Part shown: positions 5,494 to 25,318 of the stretch, piece after piece
Position numbering within the stretch: position 1 is the stretch's first letter
Layout: each line of letters starts with the position of its first letter
Assembly (NCBI GenBank): GCA_014240065.1
Contig: JAAZXR010000002.1
Coordinates: 1-64,000, forward strand
Direction: 5' to 3'
Origin: Myxococcales bacterium
GTDB lineage: Bacteria > Myxococcota_A > Polyangia > Nannocystales > Nannocystaceae
DNA length: 64,000 nt
Notes under the pieces: model-generated
The model's database searches: none
What the model was told of the DNA's origin: nothing
Seen by the model: the letters and a program-made list of their open reading frames with translations, nothing else
Program-made: the position numbers and the translations under genes

Positions 5494-6768
5494 CTAGCGT
5501 GTGGCGCTCGAGGCTTCAAGCTCGCTGTCGTCGGGGTGTGCGGGGAGCCGCACGTTGGGTCGCACGCCGCGATGGTCGCGCGCCTTGGATCCGGGCGTCG
5601 GGGAGGCGCTCTCGGCGAACACGCGCCATGGACCCGTGCTGCGGGAGATGGAGAGGAGCATGCCGACCGCGGCCAAGCTGATGAGCAAGGACGAGCCGCC
5701 GTAACTCACGAGCGGGAGGGTGATCCCCTTGGCGGGAATGACGTTGAAGATCACGCTCACGTTCACCAGCGCTTGCAGCCCGAACATGGTGCTTAGCCCC
5801 ACCGCGAGGTAGGTCCCAAACGGATCCGCGGCGCGGCGGGCGATGACCAGACCACGCCAGGTGATCGTCATGAACAGGCACAACACCACGAAGATCCCCA
5901 GCAATCCGAGCTCTTCACCCACGGTCGCCAAGATAAAATCTGTGTGATTTTCGGGGAGGTGCCCGAGTTTTTGGCGACCTGCGCCGAGTCCCGCGCCCCA
6001 GATTCCGCCAGAGCCCACCGCGATGAGCCCCTGCTTGACCTGGTAGCCGCCTCCTGCTTGAAACTCCATGAGTCGCGCGTTGCGGAACGCCACGCCGACC
6101 ACCTGGTACCAGGCGAGCGGCAACAGCAAGAGAATCGCGCCGAAGACATAGGAGGTCCTCGTGCCAGCGACGTAGAGCATGACGAGCGCGATGGTCCCGA
6201 GCAGGAGGGTGGTGCCCAGATCTTTCTCAAGCCCGACGAGCGCCATGGTCAAACTCGCGGCGATCATCGCGGGCATAAAGCCCTCCTTGAAGTTCTTCAC
6301 CCGGGTCCCCTTGCGGGCCAAGGTGAAGGACAAGAAGATGATGAGCGCGATCTTGGCGACCTCCGAGGGCTGCATGCTGATCGGTCCAAAGGACAGCCAG
6401 CGCTTGGCGCCGTTGACCTCGCGGCCGAAGATCAAGACCATCACCAAGAGCATGAGGGCGCCGAGCATGGTGTGGACGGCGTAGCGACGCAGCAGACGAT
6501 AGTCGACGCGGCTCACGGCGAGCATGACGACGACGCCCACGCCGAGAAAAATCGACTGGCGATGCAGGTAGTAGGTCCATGAGCCTGTGGTCTGGCGGGC
6601 CAGCCATCCGCTGGCGCTGTAGACCATCACGAGGCCGAGGCATGACAAGGCGAGGGACGCGAGGATGAGCACCGGATCCACCCCGCGCGCGATCTCCGAG
6701 GCGCGTCGGATGGCGGCGGGGGTCGACGGGCGCGCGGGGCTCGGCGCGGTGCTGGAGGATGCAGACAT
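5494..6768 (-). CDS. ftsW: SEDS peptidoglycan polymerase FtsW
   Basis: This 424-aa polytopic inner-membrane protein polymerises lipid II at the septum together with FtsI. The SEDS signature [21 protein letters not shown] is split over residues 138-158, and the loop [19 protein letters not shown] follows near residue 280. About ten hydrophobic segments are visible. An N-terminal cytoplasmic tail of about 30 residues precedes the first segment, as usual for FtsW. RodA is the alternative SEDS member, but mur and fts genes on the same strand favour FtsW. It is separated from mraY-murD by two unrelated genes, and murG, murC, ftsQ, ftsA and ftsZ are not in the window. Confidence 0.88.
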
Positions 6769-19000: not shown

Positions 19001-19513
19001 ATGGCCAATCCTACCGCAGTATTTGAAACCTCCGAGGGCACGTTCAAGGCCGAGATTTTCTTGTCCGAGATGCCCATCACCGCCAACAACTTTGTGGAGC
19101 TCGTCAAGCGAGGATTCTACGATGGTTTGCATTTTCACCGCATCATCCCGGGTTTTATGTGCCAGTTCGGATGTGAGCACGCCAAAGAGCCCAACCACCC
19201 GCGGGCTGGTACCGGAGGCTCGCCTCTTGGTCGCGTGCAAGATGAGCACCTCGACAACGCCAAGTTCTCGAATGAGCCGGGGACGTTCTCCATGGCGAAC
19301 ACTGGGGCGCCCAACAGCGGCGGCGCGCAGTTCTTTATCAACACCGCGCATAATGACTTCCTCGACTGGTGGACGCCCGGCCAGTCCAAGCACCCGGTCT
19401 TCGGCAAGATCACCGAAGGCATGGAGGTCATTTCCGGCATCGAGAAACTCGGATCTCGCAGCGGCGACGTGTCCAAGCCCGTGCAGATGAAGTCCGTGGT
19501 GATCGAAGACTAG
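19001..19513 (+). CDS. Peptidyl-prolyl cis-trans isomerase, cyclophilin type
   Basis: This 170-aa cytoplasmic cyclophilin catalyses proline isomerisation during folding. The core motifs FYDGLHFHRIIPGFMCQFG, FSMANTGAPNSGGAQFFI and HPVFGKITEGM are all present. No signal peptide is seen. ATG at 19001 has an AAGGA Shine-Dalgarno 7 nt upstream. A strong terminator follows 22 nt after the stop, so the gene is monocistronic and convergent with ftsI. Confidence 0.95.
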   Translation: MANPTAVFETSEGTFKAEIFLSEMPITANNFVELVKRGFYDGLHFHRIIPGFMCQFGCEHAKEPNHPRAGTGGSPLGRVQDEHLDNAKFSNEPGTFSMANTGAPNSGGAQFFINTAHNDFLDWWTPGQSKHPVFGKITEGMEVISGIEKLGSRSGDVSKPVQMKSVVIED

Positions 19514-19535
19514 CCTCGGGACGGACGGAGCATTG

Positions 19536-19572
19536 GGGGCGAACGCGGCGAACGTCGCGTCGCCCCTTTTTT
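19536..19572 (+). terminator. Rho-independent terminator after the cyclophilin gene
   Basis: GGGGCG (19536-19541) pairs with CGCCCC (19561-19566) and ACGCG (19543-19547) with CGCGT (19556-19560), with one bulged A and an 8-nt loop. Six T residues follow (19567-19572). It is a strong intrinsic terminator on the plus strand. Confidence 0.88.
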
Positions 19573-19602
19573 GTGCGTCGCCCGCGAACCCATCACCTAG
19601 GG

Positions 19603-21672
19603 TCAGTACGCCGGTTCAAAATGGACGTGGACGTTGGTGCCCTCGTCGACGTCGCCTGGCGGTATGCTCTGTCCAACGGCGAGGCCGCTGCCCGTGGCGA
19701 TGAGCTTCACGTGGCTCTTTTCAGCGGCGCTGAGCGACTGTGAAATTGTGAGCCCGGTGAAATCGGGGAGCCCGGTGGTGAACGGGGCGGGTCGCTGCCC
19801 GGGGAGTCGAGGCTCGACGTCGACGTCGGCGAAGAACCCATCGCTCAGCCGAGGATCCGCGCGGTCTAGCGCGACGCTGTTGGGCACGAGCGTGAGCTTG
19901 TCTTGGTCAGCGACGCCGAGGTGATTCATGATGGCAGCGCCCAAGCGACGAAACGCCGGCGCGGCGACCTGGTTGCCGTAGTGACCGCCTTCTGGATTGT
20001 CCACGGACACGAGGATCACGACCTCGGGATTCTCCGCGGGCAAGGCGCCGACAAAGCTGGCGTAGTACTGATCTTCGAAGTAACCGCCGAGCGGATTGGC
20101 TTTTTGGGCGGTGGAGGTCTTCCCAGCGACGCGAAAGCCCTCGATGCGTGCGTTTTTACCGGTGCCTTTTTTCGTGTGCACGACCGCGGTGAGCATATCG
20201 AGGGTGGTGCGCGCGGTGCTCTCGCTCACGATGCGTTCGCGCTCGGGTTTGTGGGTCCAGACCGGTTCGCCGGTGGCGTTGGTGATCTGCGTGACGAGGG
20301 TGGGCTCGTTGTACAGTCCGCCGTTCGCGAGCGTGGCGAAGGCCGCAGCCACTTGCAGCGGGCTGGCGCTCATCCCTTGCCCGAAGGAGATATTGGCGGC
20401 CTGGATGTCCGACCACTTCTCCCAATCGGCGAGGAGCCCCTTCGCGGCGCCCGGAAGCTGCACATTCGGTCGCCGCCCGAAGTGGAATTTCTTCGCCCAG
20501 CGGTGCAGCGCCTCTTTACCGAGTCGCTCGTAGATCTTCGTGGTGCAGATATTGCTCGAGGTCGCGAGCACCTCGGTCACGGTGAGGTACTCCGAGCGCT
20601 TCGTGTCGCGGATGGAGTGCTGCGGCGTGTATTGCCAGCGGCCGTTGTGGCAAAAGAAAGTCTCGTCCTTGCGAATGACGCCCTGTTCGAGCGCGGCGGC
20701 GACGGTGATCGCCTTAAGCGTAGACCCGGGTTCGTAGGCCGATTGAACGGCGAGGTTTCTAGTTTGGTTGACGCTCGCGATCTTGTGGTTTGGATCGAAG
20801 GTGGGCCGATTGGTGAGCGCGAGGATCTCTCCGGTCTTGGGCTCGAGCACGATGATGCTCGCGCCCACCGGGCGCCACTTCGCGACCAAGGCGTTGAGCT
20901 CGCGTTCCGCCATCGATTGGATCGCGGTGTCGATGGTGAGCACCACGTCGTTGCCGCGTGACAGGGCCGGATCGGGATGACCCTCCACCAGCAGCTGTTT
21001 CCCTCGCCCCCGATGAGCGGCGTAGAAGGCCGGGCTCGTGGTGTCTCGCCCCTTGAGCGCCTCGTTGGTCGCCAGCTCCACGCCGAGGTTGCCGATGCCC
21101 CGGTTGTTGACTCGCCCGAGGAGGTGCGCGGCCAGGTGGCCGCGGGGGTAGATGCGCTCTGGTTTTTGTTCCAGCCGAATGCCTGGGAGCTTGAGGTCGC
21201 GCAGCTGACGAGCTTCCTCGGGCGCGACCTTCAGTCGCAGCATTCGGTAGGCCTTGTCGCGCGAGAGTTCGTCTCGCACATAGTCGGGTTCGAGATCTGG
21301 GAAGATGCTCAGGAGATTGGAGAGCACCTCGGCCTCGCGCCGCTGTCCCCGAATTAGTCGGGGATTGAGCACCACCCGAAAACTCTGATTATTGACCGCG
21401 AGGGACACGTAGTTGCGATCCAAGATGTCTCCACGGCCCGCGCGGAGGCGGAAGGTGCGGAGCTGCTGGCGGTTCCCTTGTTGGAGATATTCGTCGTGCT
21501 TGAGCACCGCGACGTCGAAGGCTCGCCATCCAAGCCCGAGCATCGCGATGCACAGCGCCCCCGCGACGACGCGGGTGCGCCGACGGACGGCGTGGCCCGA
21601 GGTTCGCATCGGGCGCAGGGCCTCTCTCGCGGCCTCTCGTGTGCGCTCCCAGAGCGGAACTTTGCGATTCAT
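19603..21672 (-). CDS. ftsI: Division-specific transpeptidase FtsI (PBP3) with PASTA domain
   Basis: FtsI crosslinks septal peptidoglycan together with FtsW. It is a 689-aa class B penicillin-binding protein with a single N-terminal membrane anchor near residues 35-55, then the dimerisation/pedestal domain (RGDILDRN near residue 80). The transpeptidase domain has the three active-site motifs: STLK (Ser317, Lys320), SSN near residue 375 and KTS near residue 515. Residues of about 630-689 (LPDFTGLTISQSL through the C-terminus) form one PASTA domain, which is absent from E. coli FtsI. The start overlaps the ftsL stop by 4 nt (ATGA). This gene ends the rsmH-ftsL-ftsI operon; murE, expected next, lies about 4.4 kb away. 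Confidence 0.95.
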   Translation of the reverse strand: MNRKVPLWERTREAAREALRPMRTSGHAVRRRTRVVAGALCIAMLGLGWRAFDVAVLKHDEYLQQGNRQQLRTFRLRAGRGDILDRNYVSLAVNNQSFRVVLNPRLIRGQRREAEVLSNLLSIFPDLEPDYVRDELSRDKAYRMLRLKVAPEEARQLRDLKLPGIRLEQKPERIYPRGHLAAHLLGRVNNRGIGNLGVELATNEALKGRDTTSPAFYAAHRGRGKQLLVEGHPDPALSRGNDVVLTIDTAIQSMAERELNALVAKWRPVGASIIVLEPKTGEILALTNRPTFDPNHKIASVNQTRNLAVQSAYEPGSTLKAITVAAALEQGVIRKDETFFCHNGRWQYTPQHSIRDTKRSEYLTVTEVLATSSNICTTKIYERLGKEALHRWAKKFHFGRRPNVQLPGAAKGLLADWEKWSDIQAANISFGQGMSASPLQVAAAFATLANGGLYNEPTLVTQITNATGEPVWTHKPERERIVSESTARTTLDMLTAVVHTKKGTGKNARIEGFRVAGKTSTAQKANPLGGYFEDQYYASFVGALPAENPEVVILVSVDNPEGGHYGNQVAAPAFRRLGAAIMNHLGVADQDKLTLVPNSVALDRADPRLSDGFFADVDVEPRLPGQRPAPFTTGLPDFTGLTISQSLSAAEKSHVKLIATGSGLAVGQSIPPGDVDEGTNVHVHFEPAY

Positions 21673-22019
21673 GGGGTCTCGCGTCCCTTTGGATCGAGTC
21701 TAATTTTCTGACGCCGGCTCGGATCGAGGGGCACCATGCCGAGCAGCGAGTGCGCTTGCTCTTTGATTCGCTCTGGTCGTCGGAGGTAGGCGCGCTCGGT
21801 CTTGAGCCGTCGGAGTCGTTGGAGGAGTTGGCTGCGCTGATCGGACAGCTGCTTGATCTCCTCTCCGATCTCCAGCACCCGGGTTTGCGACTCGACCCGC
21901 GCGAGTCCGACCCAGGTCATGGTCGCGATCAAGGCGACGAAGGCGAATGTCGCCCCGGCGCCCATGAAAGGGTGAGAGGTTCGCGGCGCAGATGCCGATG
22001 ATGGATCGAGGTCGGTCAT
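21669..22019 (-). CDS. ftsL: Cell division protein FtsL-like
   Basis: This is a 116-aa bitopic membrane protein. A short cytoplasmic tail and one membrane segment (about residues 22-42) are followed by a leucine-zipper-like coiled coil with heptad Leu/Ile around EIGEEIKQLSDQRSQLLQRL. FtsL works with FtsB and FtsQ to activate FtsWI. Sequence conservation is low in this family, so the call rests on size, topology and position between rsmH and ftsI. It overlaps both neighbours by 4 nt (ATGA), implying tight translational coupling. Confidence 0.85.
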   Translation of the reverse strand: MTDLDPSSASAPRTSHPFMGAGATFAFVALIATMTWVGLARVESQTRVLEIGEEIKQLSDQRSQLLQRLRRLKTERAYLRRPERIKEQAHSLLGMVPLDPSRRQKIRLDPKGRETP

Positions 22020-22987
22020 GCTTCTACTCGCTCAAGAACACGAAGCCTCGCGGAGCGCGAGCGAGGATTCGACGCGCGCTCTTCGTCGGTCGCCATCCGC
22101 CCCTTGCGGAAGGTCTTCGCGATTCTAAATGGCGCCTTCGGGCGCTCCTGGTCGGGGATCGGCACGCCATGAGGGAGCGCGGGGTTCTCACACAGAGATC
22201 GAAAGGCCCGCTTCACGCGTCGATCTTCAAGGGAGTGAAAGCTGATGATCGCGAGGCGTCCGCCCACCTGCAGCCGCGCTGGTGCGTCGTGGAGCATGGT
22301 GTCGAGCTCGTCGAGTTCGCCGTTCACCATGATGCGTAGCGCCTGGAAGGTCTTTGTGGCGGGGTGGATACGCGCGCCGAGGTGACGCCGTTGACGCGCC
22401 GACATCGCCTCAGTGACGACGGCGGCGAGCTCAGCGGTGTCGCCGGGCTGTTGCGCCACGATCGCGCTGGCGATCCTGCGGGCATCGGGCTCCTCGCCGA
22501 ACTCGCGGAGGACGCGGGAGAGCGCGTCTGCTGTGAGCCCGGCCAACCACGAGGAGAGGGGCTGCCCGCGGCTTGGATCCATGCGCATGTCCAAGGGTCC
22601 GTTGCTGCGAAAAGAGAACCCGCGCTCTCCGGTGTCGAGCTGATGCGAGGACACGCCGAGATCCGCCAAGATGGCGTCCACGTGCTGAATGCCGATGGCG
22701 TCGAGCTCGCGGTGCATCTCGGAGAACGGCGCGTGCACAAAGATGACGTCGCATGGCGCGTCCTGCAGACGTTCGCGCGCCGCCGCGAGCGCGCTCGCGT
22801 CACGATCGAAGGCGACGACGGTCTTGGGCTGAAGCACCCGCAAGAGCGCCCGCGTGTGGCCGGCGCCGCCGCAGGTGAGATCGAGCAATATGCCGGGGCT
22901 CGAGCGCGAGCCCTCCACATCCAGCGGAGCTGAGAGCGCCTCGCACACGGCGTCCACCAACACCGGGCTGTGGGAGAACGTCGACAC
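22016..22987 (-). CDS. rsmH: 16S rRNA (cytosine(1402)-N4)-methyltransferase RsmH
   Basis: RsmH (MraW) methylates N4 of C1402 in the ribosomal P site using S-adenosylmethionine. The 323-aa protein starts with HSPVLVDAV, has the SAM-binding LLDLTCGGAGHTRALL near residue 35, LADLGVSSHQLD near residue 105, and the C-terminal ISFHSLEDRRVKRAFR motif. It heads the rsmH-ftsL-ftsI operon. The usual upstream partner mraZ is not present: a Fic-like gene lies divergently there. A terminator-like hairpin in the leader (23021-23073) may attenuate the operon. Confidence 0.96.
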   Translation of the reverse strand: MSTFSHSPVLVDAVCEALSAPLDVEGSRSSPGILLDLTCGGAGHTRALLRVLQPKTVVAFDRDASALAAARERLQDAPCDVIFVHAPFSEMHRELDAIGIQHVDAILADLGVSSHQLDTGERGFSFRSNGPLDMRMDPSRGQPLSSWLAGLTADALSRVLREFGEEPDARRIASAIVAQQPGDTAELAAVVTEAMSARQRRHLGARIHPATKTFQALRIMVNGELDELDTMLHDAPARLQVGGRLAIISFHSLEDRRVKRAFRSLCENPALPHGVPIPDQERPKAPFRIAKTFRKGRMATDEERASNPRSRSARLRVLERVEA

Positions 22988-23020
22988 CCTTCGTCAGTGC
23001 CAGCCGAAGCCTGATTCGTC

Positions 23021-23073
23021 AAAAAAGCCGCGAGGTTGCGGTCCTCAGTCCCGCCGACAGCGACACCTCGCGG
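23021..23073 (-). promoter_or_regulatory. Terminator-like hairpin in the rsmH-ftsL-ftsI leader
   Basis: On the minus strand a perfect 9-bp inverted repeat, CCGCGAGGT (23073-23065) with ACCTCGCGG (23036-23028), encloses a 28-nt loop that can itself pair GCGG with CCGC. It is followed by CTTTTTT (23027-23021). The T tract ends 33 nt before the rsmH start at 22987. The shape is that of an intrinsic terminator inside the operon leader, i.e. a possible attenuator. The other possibility is the terminator of a lost upstream gene. The function is inferred. Confidence 0.55.
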
Positions 23074-23085
23074 ACCTGCGCAAAA

Positions 23086-23137
23086 GGCGCGAATATACAT
23101 GTGTAATTTCAAGTACTTAAGTCATATTATATTGACC
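23086..23137. promoter_or_regulatory. AT-rich divergent promoter region (rsmH / Fic-like gene)
   Basis: A stretch of about 50 bp is strikingly AT-rich against its surroundings. It contains TATATT/TATTAT-like hexamers on both strands and the palindrome ACTTAAGT at 23115-23122. Its place between two divergent genes fits promoters for both. I cannot fix a -35/-10 pair with standard spacing. Confidence 0.5.
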
Positions 23138-23204
23138 CCTCAGGACTCGATGGGTAGGTTGCGCCCCCGGACGCGTCCTGCGGCGCGCTGGGCTCCAAAT
23201 TTCG

Positions 23205-23966
23205 ATGCCTATCGTCCCGTATCAAGATCTTCACGACGCCTCGGAGCTCCTTTGGGAGAAGCTTCAGATGCTGTCGCCTAGTCAACAGCAGCTCTTTCAA
23301 GAGCACCTCATGATGTCGTGGATTTTCCACGACTTCGCGCTGGAGGGCTCTGTGTTGACCATCGCGGAGATTAAGGCCGCCATCGACGACGAAATCATCA
23401 GCGCGCCCTCGCTGATCCCCTCGTATCACCACATCATCGCGCTGCGGGATGGGATCCGTAGGATCGTCGAGGCGCGGGGGAAAAAACAATTCCCGCTCAA
23501 CCTCGATTGGCTCAAGAAACTCCACCAGATCTTGTTGCCGGCGGATCGCAAGGATCAAACCCAGTACCGGAAAGACAACCCGATCCATCGATTGTATTTC
23601 CACGATTTGGCGCAGGCCGACAAGATCAGCTACCAGATGAGAAAGCTGACGGATTGGTTCCGCACAGACGAGTGCAAATATGCCAGCCCCATCGAGATCG
23701 GCTGCAAGGTCCATCGCGATGTCATCCGCATCTTCCCGTGGCCCGATATCAGCGGCCGAGTGGCGCGTTTGGCCATGAACCACGTGCTCATCAACCACGG
23801 GTTTTGGCCCGCCTTGATCCACCACGTGGATCGGCAGCGCTACTACGAGGCGCTCAAGTCCGAACAAAACGAGATCGAGACGCTCGTGGCTGGGGGCGTT
23901 GAAGGCGGTTTGAAGGCGGCCAACAAGCTCTACCAAGGCATCGTGGACGCCACGCGCCGCTTCTGA
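23205..23966 (+). CDS. Fic-domain-like protein with degenerate active site
   Basis: This 253-aa protein aligns with the Fic fold. An N-terminal helix carries an inhibitory-motif-like FALEGS (Glu47), the flap region runs QYRKDNPIHRLYF to LTDWF (residues 120-152), and the core is at residues 170-220. Active Fic enzymes have HPFxDGNGRxxR. Here the same place reads FPWPDISGRVAR (residues 177-188), so the catalytic His is Phe177, Phe is Trp179, Gly-Asn is Ile182-Ser183, while Asp181, Gly184 and Arg185 remain. The downstream RLAMNHVLINHGF and RYYEALK helices are well preserved. It is therefore probably not a standard AMPylator: a pseudoenzyme, a binding module or a divergent activity. It is divergent from rsmH and 86 nt upstream of the DUF115 gene. 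Confidence 0.8.
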   Translation: MPIVPYQDLHDASELLWEKLQMLSPSQQQLFQEHLMMSWIFHDFALEGSVLTIAEIKAAIDDEIISAPSLIPSYHHIIALRDGIRRIVEARGKKQFPLNLDWLKKLHQILLPADRKDQTQYRKDNPIHRLYFHDLAQADKISYQMRKLTDWFRTDECKYASPIEIGCKVHRDVIRIFPWPDISGRVARLAMNHVLINHGFWPALIHHVDRQRYYEALKSEQNEIETLVAGGVEGGLKAANKLYQGIVDATRRF

Positions 23967-24052
23967 GGCCGAACAACAACTCGTCGGCTATAGTCCAGGG
24001 GAGCCTGCGCGCGAGCTCGTGGAGCGGGCTCGCGACTGGAGCGGAATTCTTG

Positions 24053-25318
24053 ATGGAACCCCTCGAACAGATCCAGCGCCGGTGGCCCGAAATCGCGACC
24101 CAGCTCGCGAGCGCGCGACCCGGGCGGACCTGGGGCCTGACCCAGACGCGGGTGCCGACGCTGCGGGTGGGAGAGATCAACATCACCAGCTGTTACGATC
24201 GTGAGCGCGAGGCGGCGTTGCAGGCTTCGAGGGTTCCCGAGGGTGCCGAAGAGGTGTGGGTGTATGGGGTCGCCCTCGGCGATATTCAACGAGCGCTGCT
24301 CTCCCGGCCTGAACTCAAGCGGCTGCAGGTCGTGATCATGAGCCTCGCAGTGGTCCGCAAGGCCCTCGAGGTCACCGCGCATGCGTGGCTCGAAGATCCA
24401 CGGGTGACCCTGCATCATGGCGCTGGTGTCGACGTGCATGAACCATTCGCGTGCGCTCCGGCGTCTGTCTGGACCGCCGAGAGGGCCTGCCAGTCCTTGC
24501 GCGACCGCTTGCTGACGGCCCTCGCGGCGCCCATGATCGAGGCCTTTGAAGCGCAGCAGGCGGAGGCGATCACGCGCGCGCTCGCGATGAACGCGGAGCG
24601 GCTCGCGACCGACAGCGACGTGGAGACGCTGAAGGGTCGGCACGCGGGTAGCGATTGCTACGTGATCGCGGCGGGCCCCACCTTCGATGAGGTGGTGGAG
24701 TGGCTCCGCCCACGGGCCGCGGAGGGGGTTGTGGTCGCGGTCAACACCGCCGTGGCGCCGCTGCTGCGGCAGGGGATTGTTCCGAACTATGTGGTCGCGG
24801 TCGATCCTGCGGAGGCGCTGGTGGCGCATTTCCAAGGGCTCTCGAGGCCGGGTGCCCTCGCGGATGTCCCGCTGGTGTACCCGCCGGGGCTGCACCCGCG
24901 CGTATTGGCGGCGTGGCCCGGCACCTTCGTAAAGGCGAACCTCGCGGTCCCTGTATATCGGGAGCTGTGTCCAGACGATCCGAAAGGAGTGCTCTTCGCG
25001 TCTGGGACCGTCACCCACGCCGCCGTCGATCTCGGCGTGTGGATGGGAGCGCGACGGGTGTGCTTGGTCGCCGCTGACTTTTGTTTTCCACACACGAGGA
25101 GCCACGCCCTCGGCGTCACCACCTCCACGCCCGTGTCTGGCCCCAAGATTTTCATCACGGATGGGGGCGGGCGATCAGTCCCGAGCACGCTCAACCTCGT
25201 GGGATATCGCGACGAATTGGTCCGCTACGTGGGGCGTACGGGCGGGGTGGAGTTTGTCCGCGTGGGTCGCCGAGGCGCGGCGATGGAGGGTGTTGAATTT
25301 GTCGAGGGCGCACCATGA
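24053..25318 (+). CDS. DUF115 / MptE-like (6-hydroxymethylpterin pyrophosphokinase-like) protein
   Basis: This is a 421-aa cytoplasmic protein. The C-terminal two thirds carry the DUF115 core: SDCYVIAAGPTFDEV near residue 200, VVAVNTAVAPLLRQGIVPNY, VAVDPAE, FASGTVTHAAVDLG and VCLVAADFCFP. In archaea this fold makes 6-hydroxymethyl-dihydropterin diphosphate (MptE). In many bacteria the same domain is the core of motility accessory factors that glycosylate flagellin with nonulosonic acids. The N-terminal about 190 residues are not recognisable. Neither flagellar nor folate genes are in the window. The stop overlaps the start of the following 88-aa gene by 4 nt (ATGA). Confidence 0.82.
   Translation: MEPLEQIQRRWPEIATQLASARPGRTWGLTQTRVPTLRVGEINITSCYDREREAALQASRVPEGAEEVWVYGVALGDIQRALLSRPELKRLQVVIMSLAVVRKALEVTAHAWLEDPRVTLHHGAGVDVHEPFACAPASVWTAERACQSLRDRLLTALAAPMIEAFEAQQAEAITRALAMNAERLATDSDVETLKGRHAGSDCYVIAAGPTFDEVVEWLRPRAAEGVVVAVNTAVAPLLRQGIVPNYVVAVDPAEALVAHFQGLSRPGALADVPLVYPPGLHPRVLAAWPGTFVKANLAVPVYRELCPDDPKGVLFASGTVTHAAVDLGVWMGARRVCLVAADFCFPHTRSHALGVTTSTPVSGPKIFITDGGGRSVPSTLNLVGYRDELVRYVGRTGGVEFVRVGRRGAAMEGVEFVEGAP

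Follow-up and report, generated by a model that had tools for sequence, protein, structure and literature searches.

A Fic-fold protein family without the catalytic histidine, probably a housekeeping pseudoenzyme, in Nannocystaceae and related bacteria

Most known Fic proteins are toxins, effectors or accessory enzymes, and their distribution is patchy. Ordinary members carry the catalytic motif HPFx[D/E]GN[G/K]RxxR, and class II members also have the inhibitory motif [S/T]xxxE[G/N]. The loop formed by the catalytic motif grips the phosphates of the nucleotide, the flap docks the target and, in FICD-type proteins, the inhibitory Glu pairs with the second Arg of the catalytic motif.

Some described relatives depart from this scheme. 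AvrB is a Fido protein without the His, in which Asn is replaced by Ser and D/E by Arg, yet it is a rhamnosyltransferase (PMC2686095, PMC10866546). BepC of Bartonella is a non-canonical Fic protein that acts by recruiting a protein, and no enzymatic activity has been found for it (PMC8401265). Finally, Doc kinases have kept His and Asn and carry a Lys at position 8 of the motif (PMC4177925).

Here, we describe a Fic-fold family to which we were led by a gene in a stretch of 64,000 nucleotides of Nannocystaceae DNA (the window). With the FICD/HYPE-type class II Fics (4u0u and 6i7g; BT_2513, 3cuc), this family shares the full-length fold, the N-terminal inhibitory Glu-Gly, the second Arg and the loop Pro and Gly. 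However, it has neither the catalytic His nor the Gly-Asn anion hole, its acid position is variable, D/E replaces the inhibitory S/T, and its flap is different and far more conserved. As in AvrB, which lost the motif and kept a function, the His is missing, Asn is replaced by Ser, and Pro and Gly are kept (PMC2686095). In contrast, AvrB has an Arg at the acid position and a lobe inserted in the flap, where the window protein has an Asp and no insert, and AvrB is a secreted effector whereas here we deal with a core gene that is universal in its class. The family resembles BepC in its non-canonical motif, the Lys found at the acid position of BepC being present in 20 of 51 class members (PMC8401265), but BepC, a secreted effector carrying a BID domain, keeps the His and binds nucleotide. 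Doc kinases have the Fido fold and an altered motif in common with the family, but the family has a Gly at position 8 and has lost both His and Asn, and the Doc pattern HxFx[D/N][A/G]NKR is not found.

The gene product and its predicted fold

The open reading frame is intact (Table 1). Its product matched the Pfam Fic profile (PF02661) with an E-value of 1.4e-13 and 51.9 bits (cut-off 24). By using phmmer, we found that it aligns over most of its length with FICD and BT_2513, the loop FPWPDISGRVAR lying opposite HPFIDGNGRTSR (FICD) or HPFEDGNGRIAR, and the N-terminal HDFALEGSVLT opposite the inhibitory helix TVAIEGNTLT. An AlphaFold2 model obtained with the window protein and 14 close relatives as input reached a pLDDT of 83 and a pTM of 0.84, the flap residues 119-135 being poorly modelled. 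Its top match among solved structures was FICD (4u0u_A; Foldseek E 3e-6; Z 23.4, rmsd 3.1 A over 242 residues). AvrB was absent among the 50 structural matches listed for the model, which says nothing against kinship. Taken together, the Pfam score, the phmmer alignments and the match of the model to FICD indicate that the product has, by profile and prediction, a class II (FICD-like) Fic fold, the inhibitory helix being part of the same polypeptide. The initial annotation, made from the letters alone, had proposed a Fic fold deprived of its catalytic His, and the structural comparison that it suggested indeed returned Fic, with FICD as the best match.

Pfam detected no fused domains in the long open frames of family members. 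We found no Pfam or NCBIfam model dedicated to the family, the general Fic profile being the sole one matched. Matches of the window protein to PADLOC PDC-S04/SoFic and to NCBIfam XopAC reflect the common Fic domain, and the XopAC match is far under its cut-off. The genome of the window also has a second Fic gene (L001 1174-2064), with the intact motif HPFVDGNGRTCR.

Table 1. Features of the window at and around the Fic-fold gene.
Feature	Position	Strand	Description
Fic-fold gene (probable pseudoenzyme)	23205..23966	+	ATG start, 253 aa; Pfam Fic, FICD-like predicted fold, dN/dS 0.025 to the sister species
N-terminal inhibitory-helix motif HDFALEG	23328..23348	+	residues 42-48; D/E at the place of the usual S/T in 73/73; Glu (3 times Asp) and Gly retained
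Flap TQYRKDNPIHRLYFHDLAQADKI	23559..23627	+	residues 119-141; most conserved stretch within the class; low model confidence
Fossil Fic loop FPWPDISGRVAR	23733..23768	+	residues 177-188; His to Phe, Phe to Trp, Gly-Asn to Ile-Ser; second Arg (R188) kept
Divergent intergenic region, 217 bp	22988..23204	.	AT-rich centre; expected site of the promoters of both genes
rsmH (mraW)	22016..22987	-	first division-cluster gene; Pfam Methyltransf_5, E 2.8e-93
ftsL-like small protein	21669..22019	-	position and length between rsmH and ftsI; conserved in other Nannocystaceae
ftsI (penicillin-binding transpeptidase of division)	19603..21672	-	translation; homologues beside the Fic gene in several families
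MptE-like domain protein	24050..25318	+	Pfam MptE-like, E 3.9e-28; occupies the place of ribA in other Nannocystaceae

Catalytic loop, inhibitory helix and flap

By aligning 73 family members with 20 ordinary Fics, all from the phylum of the window, we found that the catalytic His is present in none of the former and in all of the latter; the AMP-transferase motif is thus lacking throughout the family, and the search for homologues with an intact motif proposed in the initial annotation returned none. Its position is occupied by an aromatic residue (Phe, Tyr or Trp), except in one member, which has Leu. The Gly and Asn of the anion hole, found in 20/20 ordinary Fics each, occur in 0/73 and 1/73 members respectively, Ser standing at the Asn position in 55 of them. 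The Mg-binding acid, also present in 20/20 ordinary Fics, is mostly replaced in the family, most commonly by Lys or Arg (37/73), with D/E retained in Nannocystaceae, including D181 of the window. The first Arg of the motif is often lost as well, most members within the class having Lys instead, and those outside it mostly Thr, Val or Ile. All ordinary Fics examined, including the second one of the window's genome, have an intact motif. Within Nannocystaceae the loop reads FPW[PAS][DE], so that the initially noted FPWPD is fixed there in this form only, and it loosens across the phylum to about [FYLW]P[WFY]xxx[STP]Gxxx[AG]R, from which few members deviate.

Other parts of the apparatus are retained. 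The second Arg of the motif (R188 in the window) is found in 73/73 members, and the loop has retained its Pro and Gly. The inhibitory acid (E47 in the window) is also present in every member (70 Glu, 3 Asp), as is the Gly that follows it (G48), and the window protein thus combines the Glu-Gly of a class II inhibitory helix with its partner Arg. Hence, the retained helix noted initially (FALEGS) stands as far as Glu-Gly is concerned, but not for the position of S/T, which is D43 in the window and D/E in all members. Near-invariant polar residues occur in the inhibitory helix, in the flap and in the helices beyond it (H42, D43/E43, E47, Y131, R188 and Y213), and these could make up a new active site.

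We then compared the flap with the loop. Ordinary Fics are most conserved in the loop (mean entropy 0.57 bits), whereas their flap is variable (2.21 bits). Within the class, the family shows 0.90-1.01 bits for the flap and 1.08-1.15 bits for the loop, and just 2-3 of 230 stretches of equal length are more conserved than the flap. Moreover, five of the 14 class-invariant columns (R122, P126, H128, R129 and Y131) lie within a stretch of 17 residues (119-135; binomial p 0.002), among them the series H128-R129-x-Y131. Outside the class, R122 is fixed and Y131 nearly so, but H128, R129 and H133 are not conserved. A flap is present, as initially annotated, but it does not resemble the flap of ordinary Fics in sequence. 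Conservation being high in the flap and lower in the loop, these data indicate that the inhibitory helix and the flap have become the working face in place of the loop.

Distribution, descent and selection

A scan of one genome per species gave 17 close relatives at 63-98% identity, all with FPW[PAS][DE]ISGR and labelled either as Nannocystaceae or as MAGs with broader myxobacterial or (delta)proteobacterial names. In a search of whole genomes, the gene was found in 58 of 59 related genomes, in 43/43 good ones and in 34/34 genera, nearly always as a single copy, with an identity of 63-71% between the genera of Nannocystaceae and of about 30-45% in 15 other families of the class. By running a class-wide profile against a sample of 237 genomes of the phylum, we detected the family in all 49 listed genomes of the same class and, by our own count, in 37 genomes of six families outside it (f27, f35, f37, f46, f48 and f55). 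Hits scoring below the family members were ordinary Fics, save one low-scoring member (G084). Carriage by phages or plasmids was rejected: we found no relative in the phage sequences of IMG/VR with a pattern scan derived from the profile, and plasmid matches were all less than 32% identical, the one translated having HPFVDSNGR, with the His present.

In a maximum-likelihood tree, the family and the ordinary Fics are split at 100/99 support, and taxonomic family labels need the minimum possible number of changes overall. This split, together with labels that follow taxonomy, indicates that the members descended vertically from a shared ancestor that had already lost the motif. Judged from substitution ratios, the family is under very strong purifying selection: dN/dS was 0.025 when the window was compared with its sister species, and reached 0.00-0.03 for close pairs (Nannocystis and another close pair) and 0.07-0.19 for more distant ones. 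Also, within Nannocystaceae, identity to the window is higher for the Fic protein (62-69%) than for RsmH (52-57%), and somewhat higher than for FtsI (53-64%).

Two copies seem broken, by sequencing error or decay. One shows a gap between two matched pieces (G277:C91:102714-103589), and the other a frameshift in one Nannocystis pusilla assembly (L017, around 6580-6750).

Gene neighbourhood and possible roles

The gene lies where the initial annotation had placed it, divergently at the head of a division cluster and at the usual place of mraZ, with rsmH, ftsL and ftsI running leftwards. At this place (19001-22987 of the window), the cluster consists only of these three genes, followed by a convergent cyclophilin-like gene (19001-19513). 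Divergent rsmH is found in 28/28 Nannocystaceae having the Fic gene, 3 kb apart in one of them, and linkage to rsmH occurs again in families f4, f6, f9 and f12, with mraZ in between in f6. On the other side, ribA, coding for GTP cyclohydrolase II, is the next gene downstream on the same strand in 25/28 Nannocystaceae; in the three exceptions (the two members of the window's genus and G002), one of them a genome just 54% complete, no standalone ribA was found. Elsewhere, the neighbours include argH, lysA and further core genes. The linkages to rsmH and ribA suggest an old gene order around core genes that does not fix the function, and the neighbours point only to core growth functions, namely the division cluster and GTP cyclohydrolase II.

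The initial annotation had offered either a pseudoenzyme or a new chemistry. Both readings stand, and we favour the former: the window gene probably encodes a housekeeping pseudoenzyme with the class II Fic fold, of ancient origin and inherited vertically, which would act by binding a fixed partner or ligand. The phosphate-gripping loop and the catalytic base are absent in every member and were thus lost, most simply, in the common ancestor of the family. We infer that the Glu-Arg clamp holds the inhibitory helix permanently closed and that Phe or Tyr fills the place of the catalytic His, in which case the protein would transfer nothing. The face made of the inhibitory helix and the class-invariant flap may instead bind a single, constant partner in the cell, either a protein or a small ligand, and such binding would make the protein an adaptor or regulator. 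A fixed partner or ligand is proposed mainly because conservation moved to this helix and flap, and BepC, which recruits a protein and for which no activity was found, is a precedent for a binding role. On the other hand, the flap, on which this argument largely depends, is poorly modelled, and its H128 and R129 are not retained in other classes. As the gene is a near-universal, near-unchanging single copy in the class, a dead enzyme would need to have an important housekeeping job.

Since AvrB lacks the His and is nevertheless a rhamnosyltransferase, providing a precedent for a Fido enzyme of this kind (PMC10866546), we also considered a comparable active enzyme with a new chemistry, whose catalytic or metal site would be newly made up of H42, D43, E47 and Y131, around the inhibitory helix and the flap. 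All four are nearly invariant in the 73 members, only E47 being shared with ordinary Fics, and the frequent changes of Asn to Ser and of Asp/Glu to Lys/Arg repeat those of AvrB (PMC2686095, PMC10866546). However, the first Arg and the loop residues vary freely between families, which is unusual for an active enzyme, H128, R129 and H133 of the flap are not retained outside the class, and the window protein and its taxonomic family have D/E, not R/K, where AvrB needs R266. Such an enzyme therefore appears rather unlikely, and it is unlikely too that it is a universal core enzyme of the class with a chemistry unseen in the Fido fold, built on H42-D43-E47 of the former inhibitory helix and Y131 of the flap after loss of the original site. 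An AvrB-type glycosyltransferase, in which R266 holds the beta-phosphate, was rejected for the window's branch only, on account of D181. The proximity of ribA in most Nannocystaceae, and again in the distant f27, f35 and f55, could suggest a ligand-sensing regulator of GTP or flavin metabolism, which would recognise a metabolite resembling a nucleotide in the old cleft and adjust RibA or some step related to it. We give little credence to this possibility, as the protein is kept in the window's genus and in G002, where no standalone ribA was found, and as ribA lies elsewhere in most other families of the class, so that the linkage may be mere ancestral gene order.

It is very improbable that the protein replaces MraZ as regulator of the division cluster. 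The gene is divergent from rsmH, and mraZ was found neither in the window's genome nor in any of the 29 Nannocystaceae genomes searched, but mraZ is also absent where the gene sits elsewhere (f7 and f15), and in f6 the two genes lie side by side. The association lacks significance over 16 families (Fisher p 0.28), and the Fic fold is no known DNA-binding fold. The motif being broken, decay or local mutation of an ordinary Fic could be imagined, but this reading is barely conceivable and was rejected, because the loss is fixed in the 73 members under strong purifying selection and the gene is present in all good genomes of relatives. We also rejected a FicTA or Phd-Doc toxin-antitoxin module: the neighbours are core genes (rsmH, ribA, argH and lysA) with no small antitoxin gene, and the vertical, universal distribution in the class sample contradicts the patchy, mobile one expected.

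If the pseudoenzyme reading is true, this would be a housekeeping Fic-fold protein whose chemistry was lost before the whole class diverged and which has been a near-single-copy core gene since. The family thereby raises a testable question, namely what the Fic fold does when it is unable to modify anything. A literature search, with most subscription papers outside its reach, returned no paper on an inactive Fic family in these bacteria. For annotation, it should be considered that members match the general Fic profile alone, which suggests AMPylation, probably wrongly.

Outside the class, families f37 and f48 have a gene for a class IV aminotransferase upstream of the Fic-fold gene and on its strand (L118, L119, L126, L128, L129 and L155), as well as an oppositely placed gene that matches nothing in Pfam (e.g. 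L118 4346-6466).
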